64,000 bases of DNA from Acidobacteriaceae bacterium (GTDB lineage: Bacteria; Acidobacteriota; Terriglobia; Terriglobales; Acidobacteriaceae). Every line of letters begins with the position of its first letter. The stretch's first letter is position 1. Shown in pieces: positions 20,370 through 64,000 of the stretch. The notes beneath the pieces were generated by a model. It was given only the letters and a program-made list of their open reading frames with translations. It was not told the origin of the DNA and made no database searches. The stretch covers positions 1 to 64,000 of the forward strand of contig PLHQ01000120.1 in assembly GCA_003138975.1 (NCBI GenBank). Reading direction: 5' to 3'. The position numbers and the translations under genes were made by a program.

Positions 20370-20376
20370 GAGCGCA

Positions 20377-21084: not shown

Positions 21085-21086
21085 GA

Positions 21087-21881: not shown

Positions 21882-21883
21882 GC

Positions 21884-22384: not shown

Positions 22385-22386
22385 AG

Positions 22387-47396: not shown

Positions 47397-48071
47397 TTAG
47401 AGATTCATCCAAAGCACCCAGAGCAGATACAGCCAAAGAATGCCCATGAAATGCCAGTATTGCGCGGCTGCGGCAAACGTGCTCCGCCGCAGGATGGAGC
47501 GATTGAGTTTGCTCATGACGTAAATCAATCCAGCCAGACCGCCCAGCACGTGCAAGGCGTGTACGCCCGTGAAGACATAGAAAAACGAACTGTTCGAGTT
47601 TGTGGCGAGATACAGCCCTTCCGCTTTCAATCGAAGCCAGGCCATGTACTGACCAGCGACGAAAAGCAGGCCGAGCGACAACGTTATCGCCAGCCAGCGC
47701 ATCGGTACCGCAATCCGGCTTTCGATCCCGCGAGCGTGGCCCACGATCCGGCGGCGCGCGATTTCCAGGGTGACGCTGCTCGCCAGCAGCACAACAGTAT
47801 TGGGGTAAAGAATGGGAGGCAGAGTCAGGTGGTGCCAGTCCAGCCCCGCACCCTGACGAACCACCAGAGCACTGGTGAGCGCGGCGAATGACATGGTAAC
47901 TGCCGCTAGCCCGACCCATACGCCGGTCTTGGCCAGCTCCGGCGAGTGGTCTTCAACCGCAGGCAAATTACCCTCAGCCGGAACCAGATTCCGACCGCCG
48001 CCATTTCCAGAGTGACCTTCACCCGGCAAGCGGCCAGCGATTTGCGGCGGTTCGTGAATCGTGGTTGCCAT
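47397..48071 (-). CDS. Second cytochrome c oxidase subunit III-like protein
   Basis: A 224-residue membrane protein with about five helices. 'FFYVFTGVHALHVLGGLAGL' and 'AAQYWHFMGILWLYLLWVLW' match the end of heme-copper oxidase subunit III. It differs from the upstream subunit III (48833-49462) and has a glycine/proline-rich N-terminus. The ATG at 48071 is chosen because AAGGAGT lies upstream at normal spacing. Having two subunit III genes in one operon suggests that one is an alternative or structural form. Confidence 0.85.
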   Translation of the reverse strand: MATTIHEPPQIAGRLPGEGHSGNGGGRNLVPAEGNLPAVEDHSPELAKTGVWVGLAAVTMSFAALTSALVVRQGAGLDWHHLTLPPILYPNTVVLLASSVTLEIARRRIVGHARGIESRIAVPMRWLAITLSLGLLFVAGQYMAWLRLKAEGLYLATNSNSSFFYVFTGVHALHVLGGLAGLIYVMSKLNRSILRRSTFAAAAQYWHFMGILWLYLLWVLWMNL

Positions 48072-48185
48072 AATCTTTAGACTCCTTGATGTTTCCAATT
48101 GACGATGTTCCCCAATTGATGCTGCTGATGCTGCGCGCTTTTTCTCGCAGGATCTTGATGACCCGGGCGCTTGCCGCAGAAATTG

Positions 48186-48461
48186 TCAAACCTTGCGGTG
48201 ATCCACGAACTCCTCATTACACAGGTTGCGCCTGCGGTACACGAGGCGCGCGAAAAAGCCTGTCATCAACAGAGGTGGAATCATCAAAATCACAATGCCG
48301 TTCTTCAGAGCGTGGATAAGACGGGCGCCCGAGGCGGCAGCGCTCTGGTAGCACATGGCACAGCCCTGCGCATGCAGGTGTGGGGGACTGATCAAGAGCA
48401 GAAACGCCACTCCGGCCAGCGCTAGCTTGAGATACGTACTCATCTGTTTTGCAGAGTTCAC
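48186..48461 (-). CDS. Small two-helix membrane protein with CAMCY motif in the oxidase operon
   Basis: A 91-residue protein with a signal-like first helix ('LKLALAGVAFLLLISPPHLHAQ'), then 'GCAMCYQSAAASGARL', then a second helix ('GIVILMIPPLLMTGFFARLVY'). The GTG at 48461 fits AAGGAG spacing. I know of no named family. The Cys-X2-Cys pair next to the membrane could bind metal or heme, or form a disulfide. Its place between subunits IV and III suggests an assembly or accessory role for the oxidase. Confidence 0.7.
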   Translation of the reverse strand: MNSAKQMSTYLKLALAGVAFLLLISPPHLHAQGCAMCYQSAAASGARLIHALKNGIVILMIPPLLMTGFFARLVYRRRNLCNEEFVDHRKV

Positions 48462-48499
48462 TCGATCTCCTTCGGAGCTGGGAGGAACGCCCGAGCGCG

Positions 48500-48802
48500 T
48501 CATCTCCCCAGACTCATTCTCGCCATGCGGTAGGCGTCCGGCCATAAGTAGTTCAGGAGCACAAGCACGAAGAGCGTGGCGGGAAATATAGTCCAGAACA
48601 AAAGCCGATTCTCATACTTCACGTGCATCAAGTACATGACGCCCACGAACGCCTCCAAAGACGCTAGGCAGAGCAAGGCGAAGAGCAAGGTTCGCACCGA
48701 CAAATGCTGATAGGTCAGAACCACCTCAATCCCCACGATGATCATCAACCCGATCACGATCCCTGCGTAAGAACCCATGCTCAGCTCTTGATTCGATGAC
48801 AT
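48500..48802 (-). CDS. Cytochrome c oxidase subunit IV (prokaryotic, COX4_pro/CyoD-like)
   Basis: A 100-residue protein with three helices: 'YAGIVIGLMIIVGIEVVLTY', 'LLFALLCLASLEAFVGVMYLMH' and 'WTIFPATLFVLVLLNYLW'. The 'MYLMHVKYENRLLFW' stretch is typical of small subunit IV proteins of heme-copper oxidases. It follows subunit III by 30 bp. It likely helps stability or assembly and has no cofactor. Confidence 0.87.
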   Translation of the reverse strand: MSSNQELSMGSYAGIVIGLMIIVGIEVVLTYQHLSVRTLLFALLCLASLEAFVGVMYLMHVKYENRLLFWTIFPATLFVLVLLNYLWPDAYRMARMSLGR

Positions 48803-48832
48803 GGCAGCTTCCTCTCCTCTTCGAACTTCCCC

Positions 48833-49462
48833 TCAACGGGCGGCGTTCATCAAATACATCAATGGAAAAACGAACATCCAGACCAGGTCGACAAAGTGCC
48901 AGTAAAGACCGGCGGTTTCGACGTGACTGCTGTCGTAGCGCCCCTGGTTATAGCCCCGCGCGATAAAGGCCAGTGCGATGACGCCGCTGATGACGTGAGT
49001 CAAATGGAGCCCCGTCACGCTAAAGAAGCACGCGCCGAACTGGGCCGCGCCGCCCAACGGGTTGTAGAACAACCGCCAGCCCTCGCCGATCATCTTGAAC
49101 CATTCCCGCAGGTGTAGGATCGCAAACACTGTACCCAAAAGCATGGTCAGACCCAGCCACTTGTTGGCCGAAGCTTTCTGTCCTGCTTGGGTGGCCCGAA
49201 CTGCCGCCAGCATGCTAAGGCTGCTCGAAAGCAGGACGAAGGTCATGATGATCCCGTTCAAGATCGACGAGAACTCGAAGGGCGTCCCCCAATTCTGGCT
49301 GCCCACGCGCATGTAGCCGTAGCCAAACAGAAATGTGGCGAATGTGCAGGCGTCGGAGACGATAAAGATCCACATCCCCAGCTTCTTTTTTTCCATGCCG
49401 TAAGGAGAACTCTCCATCAGCACTTCATGCCCGGTTGACATGGTCAGTTCGCTTTGGCTCAC
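48833..49462 (-). CDS. coxC: Cytochrome c oxidase subunit III
   Basis: A 209-residue membrane protein. 'KLGMWIFIVSDACTFATFLFGY' is the usual first-helix motif and 'HVETAGLYWHFVDLVWMFVFPLMYL' the last two helices; 'GLHLTHVISGVIAL' lies between. It is the CoxC/CyoC-type subunit that supports proton uptake in A-type oxidases. The GTG start is preceded by GAGGGAGGCACC. It lies 65 bp after subunit I on the same strand. Confidence 0.92.
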   Translation of the reverse strand: MSQSELTMSTGHEVLMESSPYGMEKKKLGMWIFIVSDACTFATFLFGYGYMRVGSQNWGTPFEFSSILNGIIMTFVLLSSSLSMLAAVRATQAGQKASANKWLGLTMLLGTVFAILHLREWFKMIGEGWRLFYNPLGGAAQFGACFFSVTGLHLTHVISGVIALAFIARGYNQGRYDSSHVETAGLYWHFVDLVWMFVFPLMYLMNAAR

Positions 49463-49527
49463 GGTGCCTCCCTCAGAGGGTTGTTAGATCCCGTTGTTAT
49501 GATGAATAGCAAGCTCCCGCCGGCGTG

Positions 49528-51294
49528 TTAGGTCCCGGCGATGGACTTTTCGGTTGAAGTCTGCATCACGAACGCGTCGCCATCGTATTCCATCGGGCCG
49601 TGGTAAACGGTCATTTGCCGGCCACCAAAATTGTCAAACGGGGGCGGCGATGTCGTATCCCATTCCAGCGTGGTGGCTTGCCACGGATTGTCCGCAGCCT
49701 TGGGTCCCTTGAAGCGGCTCCAAATCACGTTGTAGAAGAAGATGAACTGCGTCGCGCCCAGCAGCAACGCGGCGATGGTAATGAACCGGTTGGTGGGAGT
49801 CAATGGGACCATGAAGTCGGCCACAAACTGGGAATAACGGCGAACCGATCCGGTAAGACCCATCAAATGCAGGGTCATGAAAACACAGTACACGAGGACA
49901 AAACTCAGCCAGAAGTGTATTTTGCCGAGGGTCTCGTTCATCATGCGGCCCCACATTTTCGGAAACCAGTAGTAGAAGCCGGCAAAAGCCGCAAATACGG
50001 CGGAGAGGCCCATGGTGAAGTGGAAATGGCCCACCACGAAGCTGGTGGCGTGCAGATAGGAATCGACCGCCGGCTGCGCCAGGAAGAAGCCACCGATTCC
50101 GCCGCTGATAAAGAGCGAGATGAAACCGAGGCAGAACAGCATCGGAGTCGTAAAGCGCATGTTGGCGCCGTAAAGCGAGAACGCGAACACCAGCACCGCA
50201 ATGACAGACGGAATCGTGATGATGAGCGTCGGCACCGAGAACACCATCGCCATATACGGGCTCATCCCGCTCACGAACATGTGATGTCCCCAAACGACGA
50301 AGCTAAGGCCACCGATGGCGGCCATGGCATAAGTGATCACCTTCCAGCCCCCCACCAGCGGCTTCCGGGTGAACGTCGGCATCACGTGCGCGACGATCCC
50401 AAACGCCGGCAAAATGATGATGTAGACCTCCGGATGTCCGAAGAACCAGAACAGGTGCTGGAACAAGAGCGGCGAACCGCCGGAGTGCGGGAGCATCTTG
50501 TCATTGATCACGAGTCCGCCAGGAATAAAGAAGCTGGTTCCGCCGAGGCGGTCGAGCACCAGAAGAAGACAAGTGGGCAACAGCACGGCAAAAGCCAGCA
50601 AGCTCACCCACGCATTAATAAACCACGCCCATGTCGCCAGCGGCAGCCGCGACAGCGTCATACCCTTGGTACGCAGATCGATCGTGGTCACGATGAAGTT
50701 CAGGGCCCCGAGCAGCGACGCCACGCAGAAGAGTGCGATCGAAAGTCCCCAGAGGTTTTGACCCCAGCCCTGCCCCGGACCCGCTACCGCGCCCACGGCG
50801 CTCAGCGGCGCGTACGCGGTCCAGCCCGAGAGAGGCGGGCCGTCAGGAATGAAAAACGTCGCGCAGGCGAGAACGAAACCGACAAAAGTCACCCAGAACG
50901 ACGCCATGTTCAATCGTGGAAACGCCATGTCCGCCGCACCCACATGGATCGGCAGCATAAAGTTTCCGAAACCGGCCATCGGCGCTGCGGTCAACAGGAA
51001 AAACGCCATGATCGTGCCATGCATGGTCATCAACGACAAGTAGTACTCCGGCGTGGGAACGCCCCCGGGAGCGCCATTGGGAGACAGCGTACCCAGAAAA
51101 GGAATGCTCGCCGTCGGCCAGGCTAGGTGGATGCGCATGGCCCAGGAAAGCGCCATCCCGATGAACGCCGACACCAAGCCCAGGGCGGTGTACTGGATCC
51201 CGATCACTTTGTGATCCACGCTGAAGACGTACTTGCGAATGAAGCCTTGCGGCGGGGCATGGTGCGCGGCCGCGTGCGCTGTCATATCATGCAT
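49528..51294 (-). CDS. coxA: Cytochrome c oxidase subunit I (aa3-type)
   Basis: About 588 residues and 12 or more helices. Ligands are visible: heme a His in 'LMTMHGTIMAFF'; CuB His and the cross-linked Tyr in 'WFFGHPEVYIIILPAFG'; the His pair in 'VWGHHMFVSG'; and heme a/a3 His in 'VVGHFHFTMG'. The HPEVY motif with glutamate indicates the A1 type with D and K proton channels. I start at 51294 ('MHDMTAHAAAHH') because GGGGGAG is well spaced there; the track TTG is less likely. It reduces O2 to water and pumps protons. Confidence 0.95.
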   Translation of the reverse strand: MHDMTAHAAAHHAPPQGFIRKYVFSVDHKVIGIQYTALGLVSAFIGMALSWAMRIHLAWPTASIPFLGTLSPNGAPGGVPTPEYYLSLMTMHGTIMAFFLLTAAPMAGFGNFMLPIHVGAADMAFPRLNMASFWVTFVGFVLACATFFIPDGPPLSGWTAYAPLSAVGAVAGPGQGWGQNLWGLSIALFCVASLLGALNFIVTTIDLRTKGMTLSRLPLATWAWFINAWVSLLAFAVLLPTCLLLVLDRLGGTSFFIPGGLVINDKMLPHSGGSPLLFQHLFWFFGHPEVYIIILPAFGIVAHVMPTFTRKPLVGGWKVITYAMAAIGGLSFVVWGHHMFVSGMSPYMAMVFSVPTLIITIPSVIAVLVFAFSLYGANMRFTTPMLFCLGFISLFISGGIGGFFLAQPAVDSYLHATSFVVGHFHFTMGLSAVFAAFAGFYYWFPKMWGRMMNETLGKIHFWLSFVLVYCVFMTLHLMGLTGSVRRYSQFVADFMVPLTPTNRFITIAALLLGATQFIFFYNVIWSRFKGPKAADNPWQATTLEWDTTSPPPFDNFGGRQMTVYHGPMEYDGDAFVMQTSTEKSIAGT

Positions 51295-51354
51295 GTGAAT
51301 CTCCCCCAAGAGATGGTTTCGTCCGCCCCCGTTCAGGAAACGGACGTCCTTCAG

Positions 51355-52161
51355 TTACTGCATTGCCGCTTGCTGCTTCACCCAATTATCGAAGTCTGGC
51401 TGGGACATGACCTCGAGATACGCCTTCATGTTGTAATGCCCAAGACCGCAAAGCTGCGTGCACACAATTTCGAATTTTCCAGTCTGGGTCGCTGTGAAGT
51501 GGATCGGGATCACGATCCCAGGAACAAAATCTTGCTGCACACGGAGCTCCCGCACATCAAAAGAGTGCCCCATATCCTTGGAGTGCAAGGTGAGCAGCAC
51601 CGGCTTGTTCACCGGAATCGCCAGCTCAGCGGTCACGATGTCGTCCTTCGAATCCGCATCGTGGTCCGTATCGAGACCGAAGAAGTTCTGGCTTCCCTCA
51701 TTAATGAGCTCCGGATGAAGCGGGCCAAACTTGCCATCCGATCCGGGATAACGAAAGTAAAACGCAAACTGCCCAGCCTGAACATCGACGCGCACCGAGT
51801 TCGGGTCCGGTGGCGTGAAGTAGACCGAGCCCCATGCCTTGGAACCAACGAACGAGAGCACCAGAATCTCGATGCCAACCACGACAAACGCGAAGATGAT
51901 GAGAGGTTTCGCCCCACCGGGAAACGATTTCATCTTGCGCGCGCCCTTGCTGTCGCCGTACAGAAAGGAAAATGCCGCCAGCACCAGTTGCCCGGCAATA
52001 AACAAAATGCCTGCACCAAACACGGTTTCTTCTATCTGGTGGTCGATGTTGGGTCCGTGGACAGAAATATCCACCGGCATCCACCACACGTGAGCGACTA
52101 CGCAATAGCCGATGGCCAGCGTGATGATCACCACTACGACGGCAAACACTTTACCCGGCAT
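51355..52161 (-). CDS. coxB: Cytochrome c oxidase subunit II (CuA)
   Basis: About 268 residues. The first helix is 'VFAVVVVIITLAIGYCVVAHVWW', and a second helix lies near residue 60. The periplasmic cupredoxin domain ends with the CuA motif 'CTQLCGLGHYNMKAYLEVM' (C-X3-C-X3-H-X2-M), preceded by a His in 'SKDMGHSFDVRELR'. No cytochrome c domain is fused. I start at 52161 (GAGGAACAC upstream). It accepts electrons from a soluble or membrane-held donor; the nearby cupredoxin and multiheme proteins are candidates. Confidence 0.93.
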   Translation of the reverse strand: MPGKVFAVVVVIITLAIGYCVVAHVWWMPVDISVHGPNIDHQIEETVFGAGILFIAGQLVLAAFSFLYGDSKGARKMKSFPGGAKPLIIFAFVVVGIEILVLSFVGSKAWGSVYFTPPDPNSVRVDVQAGQFAFYFRYPGSDGKFGPLHPELINEGSQNFFGLDTDHDADSKDDIVTAELAIPVNKPVLLTLHSKDMGHSFDVRELRVQQDFVPGIVIPIHFTATQTGKFEIVCTQLCGLGHYNMKAYLEVMSQPDFDNWVKQQAAMQ

Positions 52162-52251
52162 GTGTTCCTCGCTTGATAGTCGTCGGAATCCCCAAATTTT
52201 CGGGGCGGCCCCACAGTCATACCGCCCCGACCGCAATTCTGTTTCGATTCT

Positions 52252-53798: not shown

Positions 53799-54284
53799 TC
53801 ACATCATCAGCACCGCCGTCATCTCCGCGATAATCTCTTCAACTTGCCGGGATGCATCTACCGTGATCTCGTCCTGTCCTGGGTCGCGCGCCGCATGCGA
53901 TCCGGCAGGGAGCTCGGAGCTTACGACGCGGACTGGCCGGTCAGCGACGCGAGTGCGACCGGTCGCATGGGATGCCCCCAGACAGGCGATCTTGACCAGC
54001 GAGGACATTTTAGAGAGTTGCCTTCGATCTCTCTCCGTCAGCATCGGGCACGAAACCACCACATCCCGCCATTCATAGATCCAGAAGTTAATGGTGGTCG
54101 ATAATGTTTCTATGCTCAACGCTGGATCAGCATTAGCCAGCGAAGTGCTGCATCTCCGTCCATCAAGATTGCCAGGAGGACGGAGATTCTCCGCCACGAC
54201 AAATTCCCATCCCAAGGCTTCCGCGAGGAGCCTGCCCACGGTGTCCCTGCCTGATTCTGCAGCTCCGGTGATGATGAAGACCAT
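53799..54284 (-). CDS. Gluconokinase-like P-loop protein with degenerate Walker A motif
   Basis: A 161-residue protein whose start 'VFIITGAAESGRDTVGRLLAEALGW' copies the gluconate/shikimate kinase P-loop, but the usual GK[ST] lysine is arginine and the next residue is aspartate. A 'DVVVSCPMLTERDRRQL' segment matches the middle of gluconokinases ('VVVACSALK..YR'). Length (about 160-170) fits that family. I start at 54284 because GGAGGTGAGCAGT places the ATG correctly. It is the last gene of the hydrogenase/Hdr cluster. Its kinase activity is doubtful; a binding or regulatory role is possible. Confidence 0.65.
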   Translation of the reverse strand: MVFIITGAAESGRDTVGRLLAEALGWEFVVAENLRPPGNLDGRRCSTSLANADPALSIETLSTTINFWIYEWRDVVVSCPMLTERDRRQLSKMSSLVKIACLGASHATGRTRVADRPVRVVSSELPAGSHAARDPGQDEITVDASRQVEEIIAEMTAVLMM

Positions 54285-54314
54285 ACTGCTCACCTCCCTT
54301 TTTTCCGGAGGCGA

Positions 54315-54422
54315 TCAACCGAACGAACCTATTCTTTCGCCGAGCAGAAATCCTGCAACCGCCAGAGTAAGTGTAATGACCACCACCCAAACAATAGTCG
54401 ACACTACCCACTCGCTGATCAC
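54315..54422 (-). CDS. Possible 35-residue single-helix membrane protein
   Basis: A GTG directly after the MvhD stop (TAAGTG) opens a 35-codon frame. It reads as one helix, 'VVSTIVWVVVITLTLAVAGF', followed by 'LLGERIGSFG'. It is too short for the ORF track. It fills the gap between MvhD and the kinase-like gene on the same strand. No good Shine-Dalgarno is seen, so expression would rely on coupling with MvhD. No family is recognised. Confidence 0.4.
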   Translation of the reverse strand: MISEWVVSTIVWVVVITLTLAVAGFLLGERIGSFG

Positions 54423-54836
54423 TTACGATCTGTACGGGCTGACTCCCAGCTTCTGCACTTGCTCCGTGAACTCCCGGACAACCTGCGCAAACCTGGGCCC
54501 TTCGGCCGCTGAAACCCATTCCAAGCGAAAGCGCTCTTCCTCGATACCGAAATCCGCGAGCATCAGGCGGATGGCGTCGGCTCTTTTTTCTGCCTTCAGA
54601 TTGCCCTCCTGATAGTGACAATCTCCATGATGACAGCCACAGATGAGGACTCCGTCCGCTCCCTTGGTGAACGCATCAATCACCAAGTTGGGATGTACCA
54701 TTCCCGAGCACATGACGCGGACGATGCGGATGCTGGGCGGGTATTGGATCCGGGAGACGCCCGCCAAGTCTGCGCCGGCGTAGGAGCACCAGTTGCAACA
54801 CAGCGCGATGATCAAGGGCTGAAAGTTGTCGTCCAT
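54423..54836 (-). CDS. mvhD: MvhD-type iron-sulfur subunit (hydrogenase delta subunit family)
   Basis: A 137-residue protein. Cysteine motifs 'ALCCNWCSYAGADLAG', 'VMCSGMVHP' and 'GCHHGDCHYQEGN' are those of the MvhD/FrhD-like [2Fe-2S] domain. MvhD links hydrogenase to HdrA in methanogens, and the same domain forms the C-terminus of QmoB. The ATG overlaps the HdrA-like stop by one base (TGATG). The longer track ORF is an out-of-frame extension inside the HdrA gene. A second, partial copy lies at the window's right edge. The likely role is electron transfer between hydrogenase and the HdrA-like subunit. Confidence 0.9.
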   Translation of the reverse strand: MDDNFQPLIIALCCNWCSYAGADLAGVSRIQYPPSIRIVRVMCSGMVHPNLVIDAFTKGADGVLICGCHHGDCHYQEGNLKAEKRADAIRLMLADFGIEEERFRLEWVSAAEGPRFAQVVREFTEQVQKLGVSPYRS

Positions 54837-57800
54837 CACTCTACTCCCAAAGCAGCATGGATCTGGGCCTCGATCTGATCGAGGGTAAATCCACGGATGA
54901 ATACGCCTTTCTTTGGACACGTAGCCTGGCAGCAGCCACAGCCCTTGCAGGTGGAGTCGTTGGCTTCGACGACTTTCTTGATCGACCCCTGCCACTTGTA
55001 TTCGAGCATGGTGATCGCTTTGTAGGGACAGGTGTCCACGCAGTAGGCGCAACCGTCGCAGCTCTCGTCCACCACTTGCGAGATATTCGCCCCCAGTTCG
55101 AGGCGATCCTGGATGAGGACGGATGCTGCTCGCGCGGACGCTGCCTGCGCTTGCAGGATGGATTCCTCGATGCTCTTCGGAGAATGGGCCAGACCACACA
55201 AGAAGACGCCGTCCGTCATGAAGTCTACCGGGCGCAGTTTCATATGGGCTTCGAGGAAGAATCCCTCGCTGTTGAGCGGAACCTTGAGGAACTGCGCGAT
55301 CTTCCGGTTGTCTTCATGCGGATGAATGCCCGCGGATAGAACCACCAGGCTGGCGGAGATCATGATCGGCATCCCCAGAGTCTGGTCGTAGACGGTGACC
55401 TGAAGTCCTCCACCATTTCGTGACACCTCGGGCTTGCGGTCCTCGTCGTAGCGCACAAAGACGACGCCTTGCTGGCGCGCCTTGGTGTAGTAGCTCTCTT
55501 TGAAGCCGTAGCTGCGGATGTCGCGGTAGAGGACGTACACGTTTGTCTCGGGGGAGAGCGCCTTAATCTTCAGGGCATTCTTGATAGCGTCGGCGCAGCA
55601 CACGCGAGAACAGTAGGGGTGGTCGGCATCTCGCGAACCCACGCACTGGATCATAACGACGGTCTTTGCGGGTCGATTGCCTTCGAGCGCCAGGAAGCCG
55701 TTACCGGAAGCGAGGCGTGCTTCGAGGTCCCGCTGCGTGATGACACTGTCGTCCTGTCCATACAAGTATTCTTTTGGTTGGTACTGCTCCGCACCCGTGG
55801 CCACGACTACGACCCCGTGCATGACTTCGGTGGTTTCGCCGTCGGCCGCGATCGTTGTCTTGAAGTTGCCGATGGTTCCTTCGATCTTTTCGATGGCGGC
55901 GCCGGTAAATACATGAATCCTGCTGTTCCGTCCGATTTCTTCGCGCAGGCGCGCCAATTCGTCCTGTGGCTTTTCTCCGTTGAGCACGTAGTGGATGTGG
56001 CGCAGGTTTCCGCCCAGCTCATTCTCCTTTTCCACCAGGTAGGCATCAAAGCCCTGGCGTGCCAGCGCCAGCGCGGCGGTCATTCCCGACAGCCCTCCGC
56101 CGATGACTAGGGCGGACTTTTCTATCCTGACCGTCTGCCGATGAAGCGGCTGCAAGAGCCTGGCCTTAGCCAGCGCCATCCGGACCAGATCCTTAGATTT
56201 CTGCGTGGCTTTCTCCGGCTCGTGCATGTGCACCCAGGAGCACTGGTCGCGGATGTTGGCCATCTCAAACAGGTAGGGATTGAGACCGGCCTCGGCCAGC
56301 GTGTTGCGGAACAGAGGCTCGTGGGTTCGCGGGGTGCACGAGGCTACCACCACCCGATTCAGATTATGTTCGGAGATCTTCTCCTTGATCCGATCCTGAG
56401 TATCGTTGGAGCAGGTATAAAGATTGTTCTCCGCATACACGACGTTGGGCAGCGTCTTCGCATATTCCACGACGTCCGGGACGTTGACCACGCCGGCGAT
56501 ATTGGTCCCGCAGTGGCAGACAAAGACTCCGATGCGCGGCTCTTCTCCCGGCACCTCTCTTTCGGGCGGATAGACCTTGGGAGTGATCAGCGTGCCACGG
56601 GCTTCCCGCAAGAGCGAGAGCACCTGGGCGGCGGCCGCAGAGGCCTGCATAACAGTTTCCGGAATGTCTTTGGGCTCGGCAAACGGTCCGGCCACAAAGA
56701 TTCCTTCGCGCGAAGATTCTGCAGGCCGGAACGTGGGAGTCTGGCAGAAGTTGAACGCATTCAGCACCAAGCCGAATCGTTCGGCCAGCACTTTTACGTC
56801 TTTGGGTGGCTGCATGCCCACCGATAGGACGACCAGGTCGTATTCCTGGGAAAGTTTTCTGTCGTTCTCGCCGAGATACTGGACAATCAGGTTCCGTGTG
56901 CCAGGGACTTCCTCGATTTTCGGCACGCGAGAACGGATATAGCGCACGCCGAGCTCTTGCGCTCTGCGGTAATACTGCTCGAATCCCTTGCTGAAGGCGC
57001 GCAGGTCCATGAAGAAGATGTCGCATTGCAGACCTTCGCCGAGATGCTCTTTGGCGATGATGGCTTCTTTAGTGGCATACATGCAGCAGACGGATGAACA
57101 GTAGTCGTGGTCGAACTCTCGCGAACCAACGCACTGCAGGAAGGCAATCCGCTTCGGCTGCTGCTGGTCGAAGGGCCGGCACACATGGCCGGAGTAGGGT
57201 CCGGAGGCAGAGAGAATCCGCTCGAACTCCAGAGCTGTGAGCACGTTCGGGAAGCGGCCATAACCCAGGTCTTTCTTCAACCGTGCGTCGAAGATTTCGA
57301 ATCCGGGTGCGAGGATGATGGCTCCTACTTTTAACTCGCGAGTCTCCGCTTTCTGTGCATAGTCGATGGCATTGGCCTGGCAGGCCGTTGCACAGATATG
57401 ACAATCGCAGCAGATGCCGCAGGCAAGGCAGCGCTTGGCTTCGGCGATCGCCTGCTCGCGCGTGTAGCCTGTGTGGACCTCATCGAAGGTCCTGCCGCGG
57501 GTCGCGGGGTCGAGGGAAGGGACCGGTATTTGGCGCTGCATCAGCACGCCAGCTGTGTCCACCACGTAGTTGGTATGGTACGGCCCTTCCAGTTCGCGAT
57601 CCGCACGGAGGTCCTGGTCATTGATCCAGCGATCGATGGAGTTGGCGGCTTTCTTGCCCGCGAGCATTGCCGTCACCACCACGTCAGGACCGGTCACGCA
57701 GTCCCCGCCAGCAAACACACCGGGCAGATCTGTTTCCAGCGTCACCGGATCGGCACGGAGTGTTCCCGATTTTGTGGTCGCCATACCCAGCCGTTCACCC

Positions 57801-59305
57801 AAAGCAGTCACATCGGGGACTTGGCCAATCGTGGCCACGACGGCGTCGCAAGGAATGACGAACTCCGAGCCTGGAATCGGCACCGGAGCTGGCCGGCCGC
57901 TGGCATCGGGCCGCCCGAGTTTCATCTTGACGCATTCAAGGCCCGCAACGCACCCGCCCGGGCCCGACTGGAAGGATTTGGGCGCGGCGAGGAACATCAA
58001 CTTGACGCCTTCCCGTTCCGCGTCCTCGATCTCACGATGGCCAGCGGGCATTTCTGCTCGGGTTCGCCGATAGATGATTGTCACCTCTGCTGCTCCGCAA
58101 CGAAGGGCGGCGCGCGCCGCGTCCAGCGCGGAATTACCTCCTCCCACAACCAGCACACGATGCCCCGGCGCGACCGGATTCCCCAGATTCACTCGCCGTA
58201 GAAACTCCACGCCACCTGTGACGCCCGGCAGATTTTCTCCTGGAATCCCGAGTCTCCGTTCCACGTGAGCGCCGATCGCCACGAAAACCGCCGCGTAGGC
58301 CTTGCGCAATTCCTCGAACGTGATGCTCCGGCCTACTGGCGTCTCCAGCAGGATTTCGATTCCTATCGCGCGCATCCGGTCCAGTTCGGCATTCAACAAG
58401 GGCCGGGGTAACCGGAAAGAAGGAATGCCGACGGCCAGCATCCCGCCCGCCACTGGGAGTGCTTCGAAGATCGTCGTGCCATAGCCTTTCTGCCGGAGTT
58501 GATAGGCACACAGAAGGCCGGCCGGCCCCGACCCTACGATGGCGATCTTCTCCGGACGTTCGGGCACCGTCGATTGCGGCAGCTTGTAGTCGGAATTATG
58601 GTCGGTAATGAAGCGCTTCAACGCCGGCAAATTCACCGGATCGTCCACGTTGCTGCGTGTGCAGGCGGTGGTGCACGGATGCGTGCAGATGCGGCCGCAG
58701 ATCGACGGAATCGGGTTGTCTCGCAAAATGACCTGGAGCGCCTCTTCGAAACGTCCTTGCGCGATCAGAGTCACATAGCCCTGTGCGCTCTGATGGATGG
58801 GACATCCGGCCTCGCAGGGAGAGTTCCCGCGGCGCGAAATGCTGAAGATGTTGGGAACGGCTTGCGGGAACGGCCGGAAGATCGCCTTCCGCTCTCCCAG
58901 TCCCTGATCGAATTCGGACGGTAGCGCTACTGGACACTCCGTTGTGCAAGCGCCGCAACCCGTGCATTTCGTCGCGTCGATAAAACGCGGCTGCTGCTTG
59001 GTGCTGACTGTGAAATTGCCCGGCTGCCCCTCGACGCGTTCCACCTCAGTCAAGGTAAGAATGTCGATGTCCTTGTGCCGGCCAATCTCGACCAGGCGCG
59101 GCGCCATGGTGCACATCGCGCAATCGTTGGTGGGAAAAGTTTTGTCGAGCTGTGCCATGACCCCGCCAATGGCAGGGCCGCGCTCGGCCAAATACACCTT
59201 GATACCGCCGTTGGCCAGATCAAGGGCGGCCTGCATGCCGCCGATACCGCCTCCCACAACCAGAGCAGCGCCCACCGGTACGGTTTGGGACTCCTCAGAG
59301 CGCAT
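54836..59305 (-). CDS. Giant HdrA-like flavoprotein: two HdrA modules with an inserted GltD/NfnB-like module
   Basis: 1489 residues, about twice a normal HdrA. Residues 1-130: HdrA-type FAD start ('VVGGGIGGMQAALDLA') and 4Fe-4S box 'CTGCGACTTECP'. About 150-560: GltD-like region ('CEAGCPIHQSAQGYV', 'CGRICTHPCTTAC', FAD 'IAIVGSGPAGLL', NAD(P)H 'VLVVGGGNSALDAARAA'). About 627-642: 'CLACGICCDCHICATAC'. About 650-900: rest of HdrA module 1 with 'CVGSREFDHDYCSSVCC'. From 928 ('VFVCHCGTNIAGVVNV'): a second HdrA with FAD 'LVIGGGLSGMTAALALA' and 'CVGSRDADHPYCSRVCC'. The C-terminus has two ferredoxin boxes, 'CDGCAYCVDTCP' and 'CKGCGCCQATCP'. It overlaps the QmoC-like gene by 11 bp and the MvhD gene by 1 bp. 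Likely the electron hub of the hydrogenase complex. Confidence 0.9.
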   Translation of the reverse strand: MRSEESQTVPVGAALVVGGGIGGMQAALDLANGGIKVYLAERGPAIGGVMAQLDKTFPTNDCAMCTMAPRLVEIGRHKDIDILTLTEVERVEGQPGNFTVSTKQQPRFIDATKCTGCGACTTECPVALPSEFDQGLGERKAIFRPFPQAVPNIFSISRRGNSPCEAGCPIHQSAQGYVTLIAQGRFEEALQVILRDNPIPSICGRICTHPCTTACTRSNVDDPVNLPALKRFITDHNSDYKLPQSTVPERPEKIAIVGSGPAGLLCAYQLRQKGYGTTIFEALPVAGGMLAVGIPSFRLPRPLLNAELDRMRAIGIEILLETPVGRSITFEELRKAYAAVFVAIGAHVERRLGIPGENLPGVTGGVEFLRRVNLGNPVAPGHRVLVVGGGNSALDAARAALRCGAAEVTIIYRRTRAEMPAGHREIEDAEREGVKLMFLAAPKSFQSGPGGCVAGLECVKMKLGRPDASGRPAPVPIPGSEFVIPCDAVVATIGQVPDVTALGERLGMATTKSGTLRADPVTLETDLPGVFAGGDCVTGPDVVVTAMLAGKKAANSIDRWINDQDLRADRELEGPYHTNYVVDTAGVLMQRQIPVPSLDPATRGRTFDEVHTGYTREQAIAEAKRCLACGICCDCHICATACQANAIDYAQKAETRELKVGAIILAPGFEIFDARLKKDLGYGRFPNVLTALEFERILSASGPYSGHVCRPFDQQQPKRIAFLQCVGSREFDHDYCSSVCCMYATKEAIIAKEHLGEGLQCDIFFMDLRAFSKGFEQYYRRAQELGVRYIRSRVPKIEEVPGTRNLIVQYLGENDRKLSQEYDLVVLSVGMQPPKDVKVLAERFGLVLNAFNFCQTPTFRPAESSREGIFVAGPFAEPKDIPETVMQASAAAAQVLSLLREARGTLITPKVYPPEREVPGEEPRIGVFVCHCGTNIAGVVNVPDVVEYAKTLPNVVYAENNLYTCSNDTQDRIKEKISEHNLNRVVVASCTPRTHEPLFRNTLAEAGLNPYLFEMANIRDQCSWVHMHEPEKATQKSKDLVRMALAKARLLQPLHRQTVRIEKSALVIGGGLSGMTAALALARQGFDAYLVEKENELGGNLRHIHYVLNGEKPQDELARLREEIGRNSRIHVFTGAAIEKIEGTIGNFKTTIAADGETTEVMHGVVVVATGAEQYQPKEYLYGQDDSVITQRDLEARLASGNGFLALEGNRPAKTVVMIQCVGSRDADHPYCSRVCCADAIKNALKIKALSPETNVYVLYRDIRSYGFKESYYTKARQQGVVFVRYDEDRKPEVSRNGGGLQVTVYDQTLGMPIMISASLVVLSAGIHPHEDNRKIAQFLKVPLNSEGFFLEAHMKLRPVDFMTDGVFLCGLAHSPKSIEESILQAQAASARAASVLIQDRLELGANISQVVDESCDGCAYCVDTCPYKAITMLEYKWQGSIKKVVEANDSTCKGCGCCQATCPKKGVFIRGFTLDQIEAQIHAALGVE

Positions 59306-60464
59306 GGGGAACCACCTCCGCCGCGGGTGCCTGCTGCGCGGCTTTCTCCTTGACCGCCAGGAAATACAAAGCTAGCGGTCGATAGACCATGTGCGACCAC
59401 TTTCCGAACGACATCTCGACGAGCAGCATGGGCGTCGCGATGATGATGTGCAGGGCATACATGAAGTGACAGGTGAGTGCGAAGCCGTCATAGCGAAACG
59501 TGTGGGCCGCGATGCCACTGAACACGGTCAACACGAGCAAGATAGGAAAGATCAGATCCTGAAAGGACGACTCTTTATAGATCTCCTTCTGTGCCCGCAA
59601 ACGTCCTGCGAAGATGTCCGCTAGGCCATAAAGGATAAGACCCGTCGCGAGGTATCCCAGCCAACGCTGAGGATGGTACAACGGGTACAGATTGTCAGTT
59701 TGGAACCACCGCAAAGCGAAGACCTTGATGGTTAGCATCATGACCACGCCGCTGGCCATCATCCAATGCCCCAGCCACCGGCCTTTTTGCGGACACTTCC
59801 TCATCAGAGAGTCAGTCACTGACTGATACACGTAGACCCAGGCCTCGAGCACGTAGAGAGAAAGCGGGACGCGGGCCTGCCTTTCGCCACCCATGGTGAG
59901 CCGCCAGATGCGGAAGACACGCGAGAACAAGAGCAACAGTGGAGCCAGGATCACCGTCAGCGTGTAGTAGGTCATGAGTGGGAACATGTGATCCAAGCCA
60001 AACGGGGTGGTGGCGAAATCCTTGGCCGCCATCCCCACGTACCACAAGTGGTAGCCAACGATCAGGAACAGGACGATAAACGCCACGGATAATAAGGAAC
60101 CGAGATACCACGCCTTGGACTGGAGCAGCTTGGAGGCGATGCCCGTCCAGTCGTACTGCGCGCTGAGGAAGCGTCGCAGCGTGAGCATGGAGATCCTGGG
60201 CTCCGATTGACGCGGGCAGACAAGAGAACAGTCGCCGCAGTCATGGCAGACCCATGGGTCCAGGTTTTCGACGAGCAGTTGTCTCAGTCCCAGCAGAGCG
60301 AAGCGAAGGCTCCTGCGGGGGAAGGTCACGGAATCCCCGACGAGATCACACGAGAGCGTACAGCTTCCGCACTGATAGCAGCCTGTGGGGTCGAACTTCC
60401 CATACCGCCGGATGTCGGCTAGGAGTGTAGGGTCGCTTTGAACCGGCAATATGCCTACTGCCAT
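59295..60464 (-). CDS. QmoC-like protein: HdrC ferredoxin domain fused to a membrane cytochrome b
   Basis: A 389-residue protein. Two 4Fe-4S boxes are at residues 29-39 ('CYQCGSCTLSC') and 73-83 ('CHDCGDCSLVC'), with the HdrC-type proline replacement around the second. From about 118 to 370 there are about six helices of a NarI/HdrE-like cytochrome b; histidines in 'GHWMMASGVVMML' and 'CHFMYALHIIIATPML' are heme-ligand candidates. This is the layout of QmoC, the quinone-reducing subunit of the Qmo complex. It anchors the complex to the membrane and probably reduces quinone. No apr, sat or dsr genes of sulfate reduction are in the window. Confidence 0.88.
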   Translation of the reverse strand: MAVGILPVQSDPTLLADIRRYGKFDPTGCYQCGSCTLSCDLVGDSVTFPRRSLRFALLGLRQLLVENLDPWVCHDCGDCSLVCPRQSEPRISMLTLRRFLSAQYDWTGIASKLLQSKAWYLGSLLSVAFIVLFLIVGYHLWYVGMAAKDFATTPFGLDHMFPLMTYYTLTVILAPLLLLFSRVFRIWRLTMGGERQARVPLSLYVLEAWVYVYQSVTDSLMRKCPQKGRWLGHWMMASGVVMMLTIKVFALRWFQTDNLYPLYHPQRWLGYLATGLILYGLADIFAGRLRAQKEIYKESSFQDLIFPILLVLTVFSGIAAHTFRYDGFALTCHFMYALHIIIATPMLLVEMSFGKWSHMVYRPLALYFLAVKEKAAQQAPAAEVVPHAL

Positions 60465-60489
60465 TTGCCACCTCTAACGAAAGTGCTCG

Positions 60490-60690
60490 CTACTGCGCAG
60501 AGAATACGACTTCTTTGGCGGTCCTCCTCGTGTACAAGAGGAACTTCCCGTCTTCTTCCACCATCTGGATCTGAAAGTCTTCGTTCTGATATGACTCCGC
60601 TGCGCGGGACGCTTCTTCTCTGTTGTCGTAGAGCTGCCCATCCCACATGAACTTCATGCCATCGCTGATCATCGAGAGATTCGGGCTCAT
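60490..60690 (-). CDS. Small conserved-looking protein of the hydrogenase cluster (unknown function)
   Basis: A 66-residue protein: 'MKFMWDGQLYDNREEASRAAESY' followed by 'FQIQMVEEDGKFLLYTRR'. It reads as a small alpha+beta domain with no cysteine, signal or membrane helix. The ATG overlaps the stop of the maturation protease gene by 4 bp (ATGA), and the QmoC-like gene follows 25 bp later, so it is clearly part of the operon. I do not recognise a named family. A role in assembly or regulation of the complex is possible. Confidence 0.7.
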   Translation of the reverse strand: MSPNLSMISDGMKFMWDGQLYDNREEASRAAESYQNEDFQIQMVEEDGKFLLYTRRTAKEVVFSAQ

Positions 60691-61274
60691 ACGATGCCTC
60701 CAGCCTGCTCATACCGTGCGGCGAAAACGTTTCTCACTGGCGGCGCTGTGGCGCGGGGGAAATATTCGCGGACCAGCCACTCCGACGCCTGGGGCACAGC
60801 GCTACTGACTGCTTTCGACAAGCCCTGAGAGATCTCTTCTGGCAGTGGCCCGGTTTGGCAGGCGAGCACCCGCACTTCAACTCCACAGCTTTCTTGCAAC
60901 TCGCGCAACAAATTGGACGTGGGCAACTGGTGCATCGAGAAATCGTCGAGTTTGGCCACAGGAATCTCGGCGGGATCGATCTCGAATATCTCGCCGGCAC
61001 TGCGTCCGGCATCGATCGCGTCCAGGATGAGCAAGCGCTGCGGACGGGCGGAGCTCAGGCAAAGCGTAAATAACAGCTTGCGTACGCCCGTGCCGGCGTC
61101 CAGCAAGCAAACGGCTTCGGGCACTTGGTAGTGTGCCTCGAGATAGTCAACTACCGCGCACCCGAATCCGTCATCTCCAAACAGAATATTCCCGCAGCCG
61201 AGCACCAGGGTCGGCTTCCGACAGAAATCGGGAAGATCCGATTGATCGACCTGGGATTGATCGATCTCCCCCAT
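60687..61274 (-). CDS. [NiFe] hydrogenase maturation protease (HyaD/HycI family)
   Basis: A 195-residue endopeptidase. 'TLVLGCGNILFGDDGFGCAVVDYL' is the family's N-terminal motif with the nickel-sensing acidic residue. 'LLILDAIDAG' gives the second metal ligand and 'DDFSMHQLPTSNLL' the histidine. It trims the C-terminus of the large subunit after nickel insertion; the large subunit has about 25 residues after its last metal motif. I start at 61274 (AAGGAGGAAGC upstream). It sits 23 bp after the large-subunit gene. An extra C-terminal tail of about 35 residues is seen. Confidence 0.92.
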   Translation of the reverse strand: MGEIDQSQVDQSDLPDFCRKPTLVLGCGNILFGDDGFGCAVVDYLEAHYQVPEAVCLLDAGTGVRKLLFTLCLSSARPQRLLILDAIDAGRSAGEIFEIDPAEIPVAKLDDFSMHQLPTSNLLRELQESCGVEVRVLACQTGPLPEEISQGLSKAVSSAVPQASEWLVREYFPRATAPPVRNVFAARYEQAGGIV

Positions 61275-61297
61275 GCTTCCTCCTTGTTCGCTGCCGT

Positions 61298-62743
61298 TCA
61301 GTTGGCAAGCGAACCGAGCAGCTTGCCCTCCGCGTCGAAAATATCCAGCTTGACGGAGAGTTTCCCGTCCAGCCGGTGGGTCGCGCAGGACAAGCACGGA
61401 TCGTAGGCACGGATTGACATCTCCACTTTGTTCAGCACTCCCTGGTCGTACTTGCCGTCATGGATCAAACTCTTGGCGGCCTGTGTGACCGACATATTGA
61501 TGGGAGCGTTATTGTGAGTGGTGCCCACAATCAGGTTGACGTTGGTGATCAGGCCGTCGGCATCGGTGGTGTAGTCGTGGATCAGCGTGCCTCGCGGCGC
61601 TTCGGTGACGCCTATGCCTCGCGCTGCCCGCGGCGTAACCTTCACCCGGGTTTCAGTGCTGGTAATCTCGGGATCGTCCAGCAAGCGGATGGTGTTTTCG
61701 GCGTTGTAGAGCAGTTCGATCAGCCGCGCCCAATGATAGAGCAGCGTGAGCTGTGCGGGCCGCCCGAACTTCGCGCGAAACTCCTCCAGTTCGGCCTGCG
61801 CCAGCGGCGTGTCGATAAAGTCGCACACGTTGATGCGGGCCAGCGTGTTGGCACGATACACTCCCTTGGGATTATCGACATCCATGGAGAAACCTTCGCC
61901 CCACTGTTTGGCATATGGGAACTTCAAGTAGCTCCACGATTCAATGTGCTCGGAGATGAACTCCGTATAGCGATCGTAGGGAAAGTCCTGGTATGAGCCA
62001 TTGGAGGCCATCAGGCGAAGCTTTCCGTCGTAGAGGTTGAGCGCGCCGTTTTCTTTGACGGTGCCGATGAAGCCGGTAGTGATCACTCCCAGCGATTTCA
62101 CTACGTCGAGGTACTTGGGGAAGACATTCTCCTTGGCAAAGGCAATGGAGAACTTGGCGAGTTCGAGTGTGTCATCGGCCTGCTTGCGCAACTCGTCGCG
62201 TTCGGCAGGAGCCAGCGGCTTGCTGAATCCGCCAGGAACGGCGGCCTGGGGATGGATGGACTTGCCCGCCAAGGTTTCCAGCATCTTGGCGCACAGGTGG
62301 CGCACCTTTACCACTTTTCTTGCAATGTCCGGCGCAGCCTGCAGCACGCCGATGACATTGCGGATGGAATAGTCAGCGTCCGGACCGAGCAGGAAATCGG
62401 CTCCCGCCAGGAAGTAGAAGTGCAGGATGTGCTCTTCCATGTAGGCGATGCTGTTGCACAGCTCGCGCAGCTTCTTGCCGGCGGGCGGCGGCTCCACTCC
62501 AAAGACCGCGTCGCAAGCCTTGGCCGAGGCCAGGTGATGCGACCACGGGCACACACCGCAAATGCGGGGCGTAATGCGGGGAAGGTCTTCCACCGGGCGT
62601 CCGATGCAAAACTTTTCGAAGCCGCGCAGTTCAATGACGTTCACTCGGGCGGTGTCCACGTTGCCGGCATCATTGAGCTGAATAGTCACCTTGGCGTGGC
62701 CCTCGATGCGGGTGACAGGTTGAATGACGAGTGTCTTTGCCAT
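61298..62743 (-). CDS. mvhA: [NiFe] hydrogenase large subunit, group 3c (MvhA)-like
   Basis: A 481-residue catalytic subunit. The L1 motif is 'RITPRICGVCPWSHHLASAKACD', and the L2 motif 'AYDPCLSCATHRLDGKLS' gives the four nickel-iron cysteines. The N-terminal 'VTRIEGHAKVTIQL' is the usual lead-in. The L2 form and the MvhD/HdrA neighbours point to the F420-non-reducing (Mvh, group 3c) branch, not the membrane-bound uptake group 1; a phylogeny is needed to fix the class. Three base pairs separate it from the small subunit gene. It splits or forms H2 in the cytoplasm. Confidence 0.93.
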   Translation of the reverse strand: MAKTLVIQPVTRIEGHAKVTIQLNDAGNVDTARVNVIELRGFEKFCIGRPVEDLPRITPRICGVCPWSHHLASAKACDAVFGVEPPPAGKKLRELCNSIAYMEEHILHFYFLAGADFLLGPDADYSIRNVIGVLQAAPDIARKVVKVRHLCAKMLETLAGKSIHPQAAVPGGFSKPLAPAERDELRKQADDTLELAKFSIAFAKENVFPKYLDVVKSLGVITTGFIGTVKENGALNLYDGKLRLMASNGSYQDFPYDRYTEFISEHIESWSYLKFPYAKQWGEGFSMDVDNPKGVYRANTLARINVCDFIDTPLAQAELEEFRAKFGRPAQLTLLYHWARLIELLYNAENTIRLLDDPEITSTETRVKVTPRAARGIGVTEAPRGTLIHDYTTDADGLITNVNLIVGTTHNNAPINMSVTQAAKSLIHDGKYDQGVLNKVEMSIRAYDPCLSCATHRLDGKLSVKLDIFDAEGKLLGSLAN

Positions 62744-62746
62744 GGA

Positions 62747-63673
62747 TCACCTCCGGGGCATTGGCCGCAGACGGCCAGCGCCAGCAAAACGGTTGAAGGT
62801 TGCGGCCCGATCCGGAATCTGCTTGGGATCAAGTCCGATGGAAGAAAGCGCCCCCATCATGTCCACCATGGGATTGGCTTTGTCCGACAACGGGCCAAAG
62901 CAACCCTCGCATGGCATGTAGGCGCGGATGCAACGCGGGTTTCCCTCGCTGCCACCACAGCCAGCACGCGTCGCCGGCCCCAGACACAGGATGCCTTGCT
63001 CCATCAGGCAGCGCATTTCGCTCAGTGGCGCTCCCGGCTTGAAGTCCGGCGCATCCAGTCGGCGCTTCAGCGTAGTGACCGCCTTCTTTTCGCGTTTGGT
63101 GGGACACTCGTCGCAAACGCTCTTAGACGCCAACGCGGGCAGGGGCTTGCCTTCAAGAAGAGCAACCAGGGCCCCAGCCACCATCTCTGGCGTGGTTGGA
63201 CATCCGGGCAGATACGCATCCACCTTCACGACTTCGTGGACCGCGTAGACTCGGTCGGTCAGAGCGGGAATCTGCTCGTGGGGTAAGCCGTTCTTCTCCG
63301 TTGTCACGCTGTCGCGGTAAACCTTCTCCAGAAGCTCTTCCGTGCTGAACTGATTTGCCAGAGCCGGTATGCCGCCAAAGCAGGCACAAGAACCTAGAGA
63401 GATCAGGATCTTGCACTTCTTGCGCATTTCTTGCGCCAGTTTCTTGTGCTCTTCGCTACGGATTCCTCCAGATATCAGCCCGACATCCGCCGCGGGGATT
63501 TCCATCTCTGTACCTTCGCCCGTCTGACCGTAAAGCTTGTGGTCCATCAGGACTGGCATGTGCACGATTTCCACTTGTTTGAGTACGTCGAGTAGCGGTT
63601 CACCGATGTCGAGGATGGTTACCTCGCAACCCCCGCATATGGCGAACCATTCTTCGGCAAGTCGAGCTGCCAT
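62747..63673 (-). CDS. mvhG: [NiFe] hydrogenase small subunit, MvhG-like
   Basis: A 308-residue electron-transfer subunit. The proximal-cluster cysteines are in 'FAICGGCEVTILD' (C13, C16), 'SLGSCACFGGIPA' and 'YLPGCPTTPE'. More cysteines follow in 'SVCDECPTKREKKA', 'ILCLGPATRAGCGG' and 'MPCEGCFGPLSD', enough for three 4Fe-4S clusters as in MvhG. There is no Tat signal peptide, so the enzyme stays in the cytoplasm, unlike group 1 uptake enzymes. It begins the part of the operon visible here, 87 bp after a partial second MvhD gene. Confidence 0.92.
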   Translation of the reverse strand: MAARLAEEWFAICGGCEVTILDIGEPLLDVLKQVEIVHMPVLMDHKLYGQTGEGTEMEIPAADVGLISGGIRSEEHKKLAQEMRKKCKILISLGSCACFGGIPALANQFSTEELLEKVYRDSVTTEKNGLPHEQIPALTDRVYAVHEVVKVDAYLPGCPTTPEMVAGALVALLEGKPLPALASKSVCDECPTKREKKAVTTLKRRLDAPDFKPGAPLSEMRCLMEQGILCLGPATRAGCGGSEGNPRCIRAYMPCEGCFGPLSDKANPMVDMMGALSSIGLDPKQIPDRAATFNRFAGAGRLRPMPRR

Positions 63674-63736
63674 GCTGCACCTCCCTACCGGACTTGAATT
63701 AGTGCTGCTTCGTTCTCGTCTCCTGCGATCTGTTAC

Positions 63737-63772
63737 TTACGGCGTTTATTACGGCGTTTATTACGGCGTTCG
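63737..63772. repeat. 12-bp tandem repeat (three units) at the stop codon of the partial MvhD gene
   Basis: TTACGGCGTTTA occurs twice in a row (63737-63748, 63749-63760), followed by TTACGGCGTTCG (63761-63772). Read on the minus strand, each unit ends in TAA, so the gene's last codons and stop codon are repeated twice beyond the real end. Confidence 0.7.
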
Positions 63773-64000
63773 ATACGGGCTTGGACCGAGCTTCCTAACC
63801 TGCTCCGCCATCTCCCAAGGCACGTGGGCAAAGCGCGATTCTTCGGAAGCCGAGACCCACTGCAGCCGGAAACACTCCGGCTCCAATCCCAAATTCTCCA
63901 GTATTAGGTTGTTAGGATGGGCACGCGAGTGGGCCCACAGGTTGTCATCGCGGTAATGGCAGTGGACGGGATAACAGTCCAGAACTGGCGCGTCTTTCCA
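63761..64000 (-). CDS. Second MvhD-like iron-sulfur protein, partial (runs off the right edge)
   Basis: The last 79 codons are visible, starting in mid-protein. 'CYPVHCHYRDDN' matches the 'GCHHGDCHYQEGN' box of the other MvhD, and 'FRLQWVSASEESRFAHVPWEM' plus the end 'VRKLGPSPYRTP' align with that protein's 'FRLEWVSAAEGPRFAQVVREF' and 'VQKLGVSPYRS'. The box has drifted: the glycine-cysteine-histidine start is now Asp-Cys-Tyr. It begins upstream of the hydrogenase small subunit on the same strand, so it is probably in the same operon. Too short for the ORF track because it is cut by the edge. Confidence 0.75.
   Translation of the reverse strand, partial: WKDAPVLDCYPVHCHYRDDNLWAHSRAHPNNLILENLGLEPECFRLQWVSASEESRFAHVPWEMAEQVRKLGPSPYRTP

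Follow-up and report, generated by a model that had tools for sequence, protein, structure and literature searches.

A hydrogenase–HdrA–QmoC operon from an acidobacterium: a candidate membrane-bound H2:menaquinone/NADP+ oxidoreductase

The window analysed here, a 64,000-nucleotide stretch of DNA (positions 1–64000 of contig PLHQ01000120.1) from an Acidobacteriaceae bacterium with a genome of 5.45 Mb (98.6% complete), carries near its right end a compact gene cluster in which a [NiFe]-hydrogenase is combined with a giant HdrA flavoprotein and a QmoC-like subunit. We consider it probable that the cluster encodes one membrane-bound H2:menaquinone/NADP+ oxidoreductase, most likely an electron-bifurcating one; the composition of this complex is well supported, and its catalysis, direction and use of ferredoxin are proposals drawn from the genes. 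The minus-strand run comprises mvhG, mvhA, a gene for a HycI-type protease, a gene for a 66-amino-acid (aa) protein, a qmoC-like gene, hdrA (1489 aa) and mvhD, with clear family matches for all but the 66-aa gene (Table 1). Only 3 bp separate mvhG from mvhA and about 23 bp mvhA from the protease gene, hdrA starts inside the end of qmoC, and the hdrA stop and mvhD start overlap as TGATG. The apparent gap of 222 bp between the protease and qmoC genes is occupied by the 66-aa gene, whose start codon lies in the protease stop (ATGA). The tight operon described in the initial annotation is borne out, all genes being open and the motifs intact; the genes it named are all present, but it overlooked the 66-aa gene.

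The hydrogenase has the hallmarks of the Mvh/Vhu family. The best Protein Data Bank (PDB) matches of MvhA are methanogen Vhu/Mvh proteins (1e-117 to 1e-122), both active-site metal-binding motifs, RICGVC (L1) and DPCLSCATH (L2), are intact, and MvhG has 13 invariant cysteines and 2 invariant histidines in an alignment over 12 relatives. Many large subunits (loci L072–L075, L078–L081 and L084–L093) read IVTSICGVC, without the usual R before the L1 cysteines. A scan of named genomes with the large subunit returned a clade at 57–94% identity in many phyla, after which identity drops to ≤49%; the closest relative of the window belongs to a Candidatus Sulfotelmatobacter metagenome-assembled genome (MAG). 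In an MvhA tree with PDB references the window clade is recovered at 100/99, is separated from the group 3d rows at 100/98, and also stands apart from the methanogen PDB group 3c rows and from other bacterial and archaeal 3c rows. Two archaeal loci, L079 (Methanomassiliicoccales) and L091 (Euryarchaeota), both with the 66-aa protein, fall within this hydrogenase clade, which suggests transfer between domains.

The giant HdrA is a composite of three parts. Residues 1–160 and ~631–905 match the FAD domain of HdrA with its inserted ferredoxin domain (copy 1), residues 161–631 match NfnB/GltD-type flavoproteins, and residues 921–1489 match a second HdrA that lacks the inserted ferredoxin domain and consists of N-terminal, FAD and C-terminal ferredoxin domains (copy 2). 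The flavin and 4Fe–4S motifs are retained. Alignment with insert-free homologues (L094, L113, L079, L098) places NfnB exactly between the two 4Fe–4S motifs of the copy 1 ferredoxin domain, the domain that in methanogen HdrA is the low-potential electron exit (PMC9012536). The NfnB module bears the motif GGGNSA...YRRTRAEMPA, of NADPH type. A "double HdrA" had been proposed, and two copies are indeed present, but they are not a plain doubling, as copy 1 is interrupted by NfnB/GltD and then followed by copy 2. The protein type is itself already known, because the HdrA of Moorella and the HdrL of Desulfobacterium share this architecture; what is unusual is its company.

That company includes a QmoC-like protein in which the eight invariant cluster cysteines and the conserved helix histidines are retained. 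It scores 158 bits against the QmoC model (cut-off 300); this phylum's Qmo loci with dsr neighbours have QmoC proteins that score 219–228, also below the cut-off. The QmoC proteins of the present system form a single clade (99) separate from the proteins of the dsr-neighbouring loci, and QmoC of this type (type A) was found only beside this hydrogenase (3 of 3 in the class sample).

The expected soluble partner, HdrB, is missing from every contiguous QmoC-type locus and from the window contig, such that the linkage to HdrABC that marks group 3c is absent despite the presence of HdrA and MvhD. The contig runs 8.8 kb past the right edge of the window and was read to its end, a region holding a decayed mvhD, a DUF2339-like open reading frame (ORF) with an assembly gap, genes for NrfD, an NrfC-like protein and a c-type cytochrome, and a KdpA-like ORF (the DUF2339 and KdpA labels were read off the sequence). 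No ORF with the CCG motif of HdrB occurs in the window or in these 8.8 kb; the three large CCG proteins of the genome are all on other contigs. A genome-wide search found no aprA, no dsrA match above cut-off and a single QmoC-like gene, and HypD is present. The initial annotation had held that HdrB and apr/dsr partners are lacking in the window, which holds, and had named an hdrB or sulfur partner directly upstream as the finding that would overturn it; such a partner was searched for and is absent.

Comparison of gene order in relatives likewise shows the combination to be conserved, free of HdrB, in independent genomes. Hydrogenase, MvhD, HdrA and QmoC genes are contiguous in ten loci (the window, L042, L063, L064, L067, L068, L071, L087, L163 and genome G208, L041+L061), among them L071 from Ignavibacteriae and L087 from the peat MAG SbA4; in a Bacteroidetes MAG, QmoC and MvhA fall on two contigs, and one stretch of protein is encoded at the ends of both. 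The same core occurs with HdrC and HdrB, and without QmoC, in Chloroflexi (L077, L083), Actinobacteria (L078), KSB1 (L073/L169) and Planctomycetota (L085/L170). A second exchange affects the insert: NfnB is replaced by an NADH module in G208, L163, L169 and L170, and also in L164, L165 and L166, which are partial contigs. In the NADH version HdrA1 is cut at the NfnB site, a NuoE domain is fused to its first part, NuoE-like and NuoF proteins come next, and the remainder of HdrA follows a NuoG N-terminal domain. NuoF of this version has two C-terminal 4Fe–4S motifs, as does the bifurcating BfuB (PMC9304861), and is BfuB-like in L041, L163, L166 and L169. Two closely related Sulfotelmatobacter MAGs differ in this module, G302 (L166) having NuoEFG and G303 (L167) NfnB; the QmoC of each is ~71% identical to that of the window. 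The system is rare and patchy in Acidobacteriota: the hydrogenase is found in 6 of 396 genomes, four of the five besides the window's genome also have this QmoC, and three sampled genomes of the host's genus gave no QmoC-like match.

These relatives bear on how the system arose. The QmoC-linked MvhA rows form a 95/83 subset nested among HdrCB-linked rows, with the Bacteroidetes MAG as a second placement; the subset includes L062, whose contig is too short to show QmoC or HdrCB. On the MvhA tree the label changes only twice between QmoC and HdrCB, and on a quick tree five times between NfnB and NuoEFG. Because QmoC rows nest among HdrCB rows, QmoC probably replaced HdrCB on an Mvh–HdrA–NAD(P)H core, the direction being suggested by the nesting. 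The initial annotation had read the cluster as a merger of Mvh with Qmo, a view that gives way here, since soluble HdrCB is found in relatives that share the hydrogenase, HdrA, MvhD and the NAD(P)H module, making the swap more economical. A single origin of all QmoC-hydrogenases was also considered and rejected: type B loci have their own MvhA clade, and their QmoC is sister to the dsr-neighbouring Qmo type. In type B (L046, L049, L050) a group 3c Mvh hydrogenase, two HdrA proteins and QmoC were joined independently, and no NAD(P)H module is present. Most relatives have the order qmoC–hdrA–mvhD–mvhG–mvhA–protease, the hydrogenase block coming first in the window and in L063, and in the close relative L062 the end of mvhD lies directly upstream of mvhG. 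The decayed mvhD before mvhG in the window fits an ancestral mvhD–mvhG junction, a relic of operon permutation by tandem duplication and loss.

Residues E356 and K409 of methanogen HdrA have been used to recognise bifurcating flavins (PMC9430772), and both HdrA copies of the window have their equivalents (E695/K746 and E1195/K1242). Both pairs are kept in every QmoC-core and HdrCB-core complex tested; in other systems the second HdrA copy has N/H (type B), I/Q or similar (type D) or variable residues (QmoB). That the cluster encodes an H2/NAD(P)H:quinone complex, as originally suggested, is the natural reading of the gene set because the set is conserved, HdrB is lacking, an NAD(P)H module is present and the quinone subunit is of haem b type. 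The overall reaction would be 2 H2 + MQ + NADP+ → MQH2 + NADPH + H+ (MQ, menaquinone), with H2 oxidised in the cytoplasm. By analogy with homologous structures, electrons would pass from the NiFe site of MvhA through three 4Fe–4S clusters of MvhG and the 2Fe–2S cluster of MvhD to the C-terminal ferredoxin domain and FAD of HdrA copy 2. On the high-potential side the route would then lead by way of the QmoC-like subunit, from its HdrC domain to haem b and on to menaquinone; on the low-potential side it would run by HdrA copy 1, whose inserted ferredoxin domain carries NfnB, to NADP+. Calculated with assumed potentials from the literature range (E′ of −370 mV for NADP and −74 mV for menaquinone), reduction of NADP+ by H2 alone is endergonic at ≤0.01 bar H2, and the coupled reaction yields about −28 kJ/mol at 10 Pa H2 and is slightly negative at atmospheric H2. 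A wider proposal, falling a little short of probable, is that there exist modular quinone-dependent bifurcating [NiFe]-hydrogenases, with a switch of the high-potential arm from HdrCB to QmoC on one hydrogenase–HdrA core, a plug-in NfnB (NADPH) or Bfu-like NuoEFG (NADH) unit whose place in the ferredoxin domain of HdrA is fixed and, frequently, the 66-aa subunit.

Several points weigh against a single bifurcating complex. QmoA keeps both E and K, so the pair, an imperfect marker, counts in favour of bifurcation without proving it. Genes that are transcribed together need not encode one complex, and this one is known from its genes. The preference for NADP is read from one motif, and NADH is oxidised by the Moorella HdrA, which shares this architecture (PMC9430772). 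The relatives are almost all MAGs, and QmoC and MvhA genes are on separate contigs in G302, G303, G307 and G309. The predicted QmoC structure is a helical membrane model of moderate quality (predicted local distance difference test score 75), and a structure search with it gave no significant match (best E 0.27, NarI/HdrC chains at probability 0.9–1.0), for which reason we used the model for topology only.

Were the enzyme a non-bifurcating uptake system, H2 and, separately, NADPH via NfnB would feed menaquinone through QmoC as in an uncoupled dual-donor dehydrogenase. We regard this as unlikely. In its favour, Qmo works without demonstrated bifurcation and its QmoA keeps the E/K pair as HdrA1 does, and the type B QmoC-hydrogenases (L046, L049, L050), which have neither an NAD(P) module nor the E/K pair in HdrA2, make H2-to-quinone wiring without bifurcation plausible. 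The pairing of both E/K sets with a pyridine-nucleotide module in every QmoC+NfnB and QmoC+NuoEFG locus tested speaks for coupling instead, as does the position of the insert in the ferredoxin arm, the low-potential exit of methanogen HdrA (PMC9012536). Ferredoxin might alternatively be the low-potential product, with NfnB supplying or confurcating NADPH in a four-partner complex such as has been postulated for Moorella MetFV–HdrABC. NfnB homologues do exchange electrons with ferredoxin (PMC5861303), and the motifs of the HdrA1 ferredoxin domain are kept on both sides of the insert; that insert, however, splits the ferredoxin-docking domain, and no ferredoxin genes were seen in the conserved operon, so that we hold this scheme, too, to be unlikely.

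Operation in reverse, in which NADPH and a low-potential donor would drive H2 evolution as an outlet for reductant under anoxia, appears improbable, even though hydrogenases of group 3 work reversibly. In anoxic peat microcosms, acidobacterial hydrogenase genes of groups 1 and 3 were upregulated (PMC6018796), and the cluster is carried by one MAG of that study, SbA4 (L087). Against this, menaquinol is by potential estimates too oxidising to feed H2 production, and the QmoC arm favours outflow to quinone. A Qmo-like sulfur complex for adenosine 5′-phosphosulfate (APS) or sulfite reduction is very improbable, for despite the resemblance of two HdrA copies and a QmoC-like subunit to QmoABC the 98.6% complete genome shows no aprA, no dsrA above cut-off and no second Qmo, and the QmoC lies outside the clade of QmoCs from the phylum's dsr-neighbouring Qmo loci.

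The 66-aa protein probably serves HdrA/MvhD complexes as an accessory subunit. It falls in no Pfam or NCBIfam family above cut-off, and the alignment of its family shows invariant G-K-WDG...RR residues. A profile search recovered it from 16 of 34 named loci of the clade, as well as from genomes G302 and G303, and these occurrences span the QmoC and HdrCB forms and include archaea; 46 other group 3c loci gave no hit. Among the 396 Acidobacteriota genomes it occurs in three, once beside another HdrA with this hydrogenase not in view.

Table 1 Features of the hydrogenase–HdrA–QmoC cluster in the window.
Feature	Positions	Strand	Evidence
mvhG, [NiFe]-hydrogenase small subunit, 308 aa	62747..63673	-	Oxidored_q6 3e-31, VhuG 2.7e-71
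mvhA, [NiFe]-hydrogenase large subunit, 481 aa, group-3c-like	61298..62743	-	VhuA 4e-134
Hydrogenase maturation protease, HycI/FrhD family	60687..61274	-	HycI 1e-23, FrhD 7e-35
Conserved 66-aa small protein gene (KKFMWDG...YTRR)	60490..60690	-	No named family
qmoC-like, 389 aa: HdrC ferredoxin domain (two 4Fe–4S) and membrane cytochrome b domain	59295..60464	-	qmoC model 4e-46
hdrA–nfnB–hdrA fusion, HdrL-like, 1489 aa	54836..59305	-	HdrA2 model 7e-304, PDB matches
NfnB/GltD-type FAD and NAD(P)H module, ~aa 161–631 of HdrA	57413..58825	-	
HdrA copy 2, aa 921–1489	54836..56545	-	PDB matches
mvhD, putative [2Fe–2S] linker between hydrogenase and HdrA	54423..54836	-	FlpD 8e-56
Decayed second mvhD	63767..64000, extends to contig position 64012	-	tblastn 7e-21, 46% over 82 aa

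Several neighbouring genes were considered alongside the cluster. The NrfD, NrfC-like and c-type cytochrome genes (DsrJOP/Ttr-like) lie upstream on the same strand (contig 66128–68930; L004 6128–8930); they were rejected as part of the system, being missing from the 20-kb neighbourhood of the same-order sister locus L171, and possibly encode a separate quinol complex. The gene at 53799–54293 was likewise set aside, as its GntK/AroL-like P-loop kinase product is below all cut-offs and has no match in the loci of relatives. Cytochrome c oxidase-like genes, named from their sequence, adjoin the cluster at 47397–52236 of the window and suggest an O2-respiring host. Farther away (window 18324–24369), a 660-aa NfnB/GltD-like protein with extra ferredoxin motifs is encoded near genes for a multihaem cytochrome c and a cytochrome b-like protein (the latter named from sequence), which perhaps form an NAD(P)H-linked bc-type complex. 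Another hydrogenase of the host genome (L057 320–6163, G000:C84) groups with NiFe-HydABCSL (PDB 7t2r) and adjoins a 1052-aa protein with an NfnB-like domain; a fragment of a similar protein is found at an end of contig C112 (L059).

If the proposed complex does bifurcate, it would be an analogue of EtfABCX that is driven by a hydrogenase and has quinone as high-potential acceptor. It would then also account for the ability of respiring soil bacteria to gain NADPH from H2 at pressures far too low for direct NADP+ reduction. Should the modular reading be true, soil acidobacteria would make NADPH from trace H2 and pay for it by menaquinone reduction. The natural series of HdrCB or QmoC, of NfnB, NuoEFG or no insert, and of both or one E/K pair offers a comparison set for HdrA bifurcation and the exits of its arms. 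The annotation of group 3c as soluble and heterodisulfide-linked is unsafe in Acidobacteriota, Ignavibacteria and Bacteroidota.

We found no description of a QmoC and Mvh/HdrA set in the open-access literature searched; the review of HdrA modules by Appel et al. (2021) may mention it. The cluster shares parts with several known systems. Like methanogen Mvh–Hdr (MvhADG–HdrABC, group 3c), it has the MvhA–MvhG–MvhD–HdrA chain, an HdrC-type ferredoxin domain and the E356/K409 equivalents; unlike it, the cluster lacks HdrB, fuses HdrC to a membrane cytochrome b, possesses a second HdrA copy and an NAD(P)H module, and has its MvhA in a separate, bacterial-dominated clade. Its HdrA agrees in architecture with that of Moorella thermoacetica MetFV–HdrABC–MvhD (162.8 kDa), in which copy 1 is interrupted by GltD/NfnB, copy 2 spans aa 922–1487 and both copies have E/K (PMC9430772). 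The two differ in partners, which are methylene-tetrahydrofolate reductase and soluble HdrBC in Moorella and a hydrogenase and QmoC in the window. HdrL of Desulfobacterium autotrophicum, a HdrA/glutamate-synthase fusion followed by mvhD, with HdrL1 reported together with dsr genes (PMC2702500), shares the interrupted HdrA1, the C-terminal HdrA2 and the adjoining mvhD, features by which the window protein is of HdrL/Moorella type; the HdrL locus, unlike the window, has no hydrogenase or QmoC described. QmoABC similarly joins two HdrA-like flavoproteins to an HdrC–cytochrome b subunit leading to menaquinone, but the window cluster lacks AprAB, has a QmoC of another clade, adds the hydrogenase and the NAD(P)H module, and keeps E/K in the second HdrA. 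To the Bfu family (NiFe-HydABCSL) and Bam (BamB-I) the link runs through the NADH version of relatives, which joins a BfuB-like NuoF to HdrA, as Bam does (PMC9304861); the window itself has NfnB in place of the BfuBC (HydBC/NuoF–NuoE) core, together with QmoC and an Mvh-type hydrogenase. EtfABCX/FixABCX, finally, also bifurcates with quinone as high-potential acceptor (PMC9304861), but does so with unrelated flavoproteins, NADH as donor and no hydrogenase.

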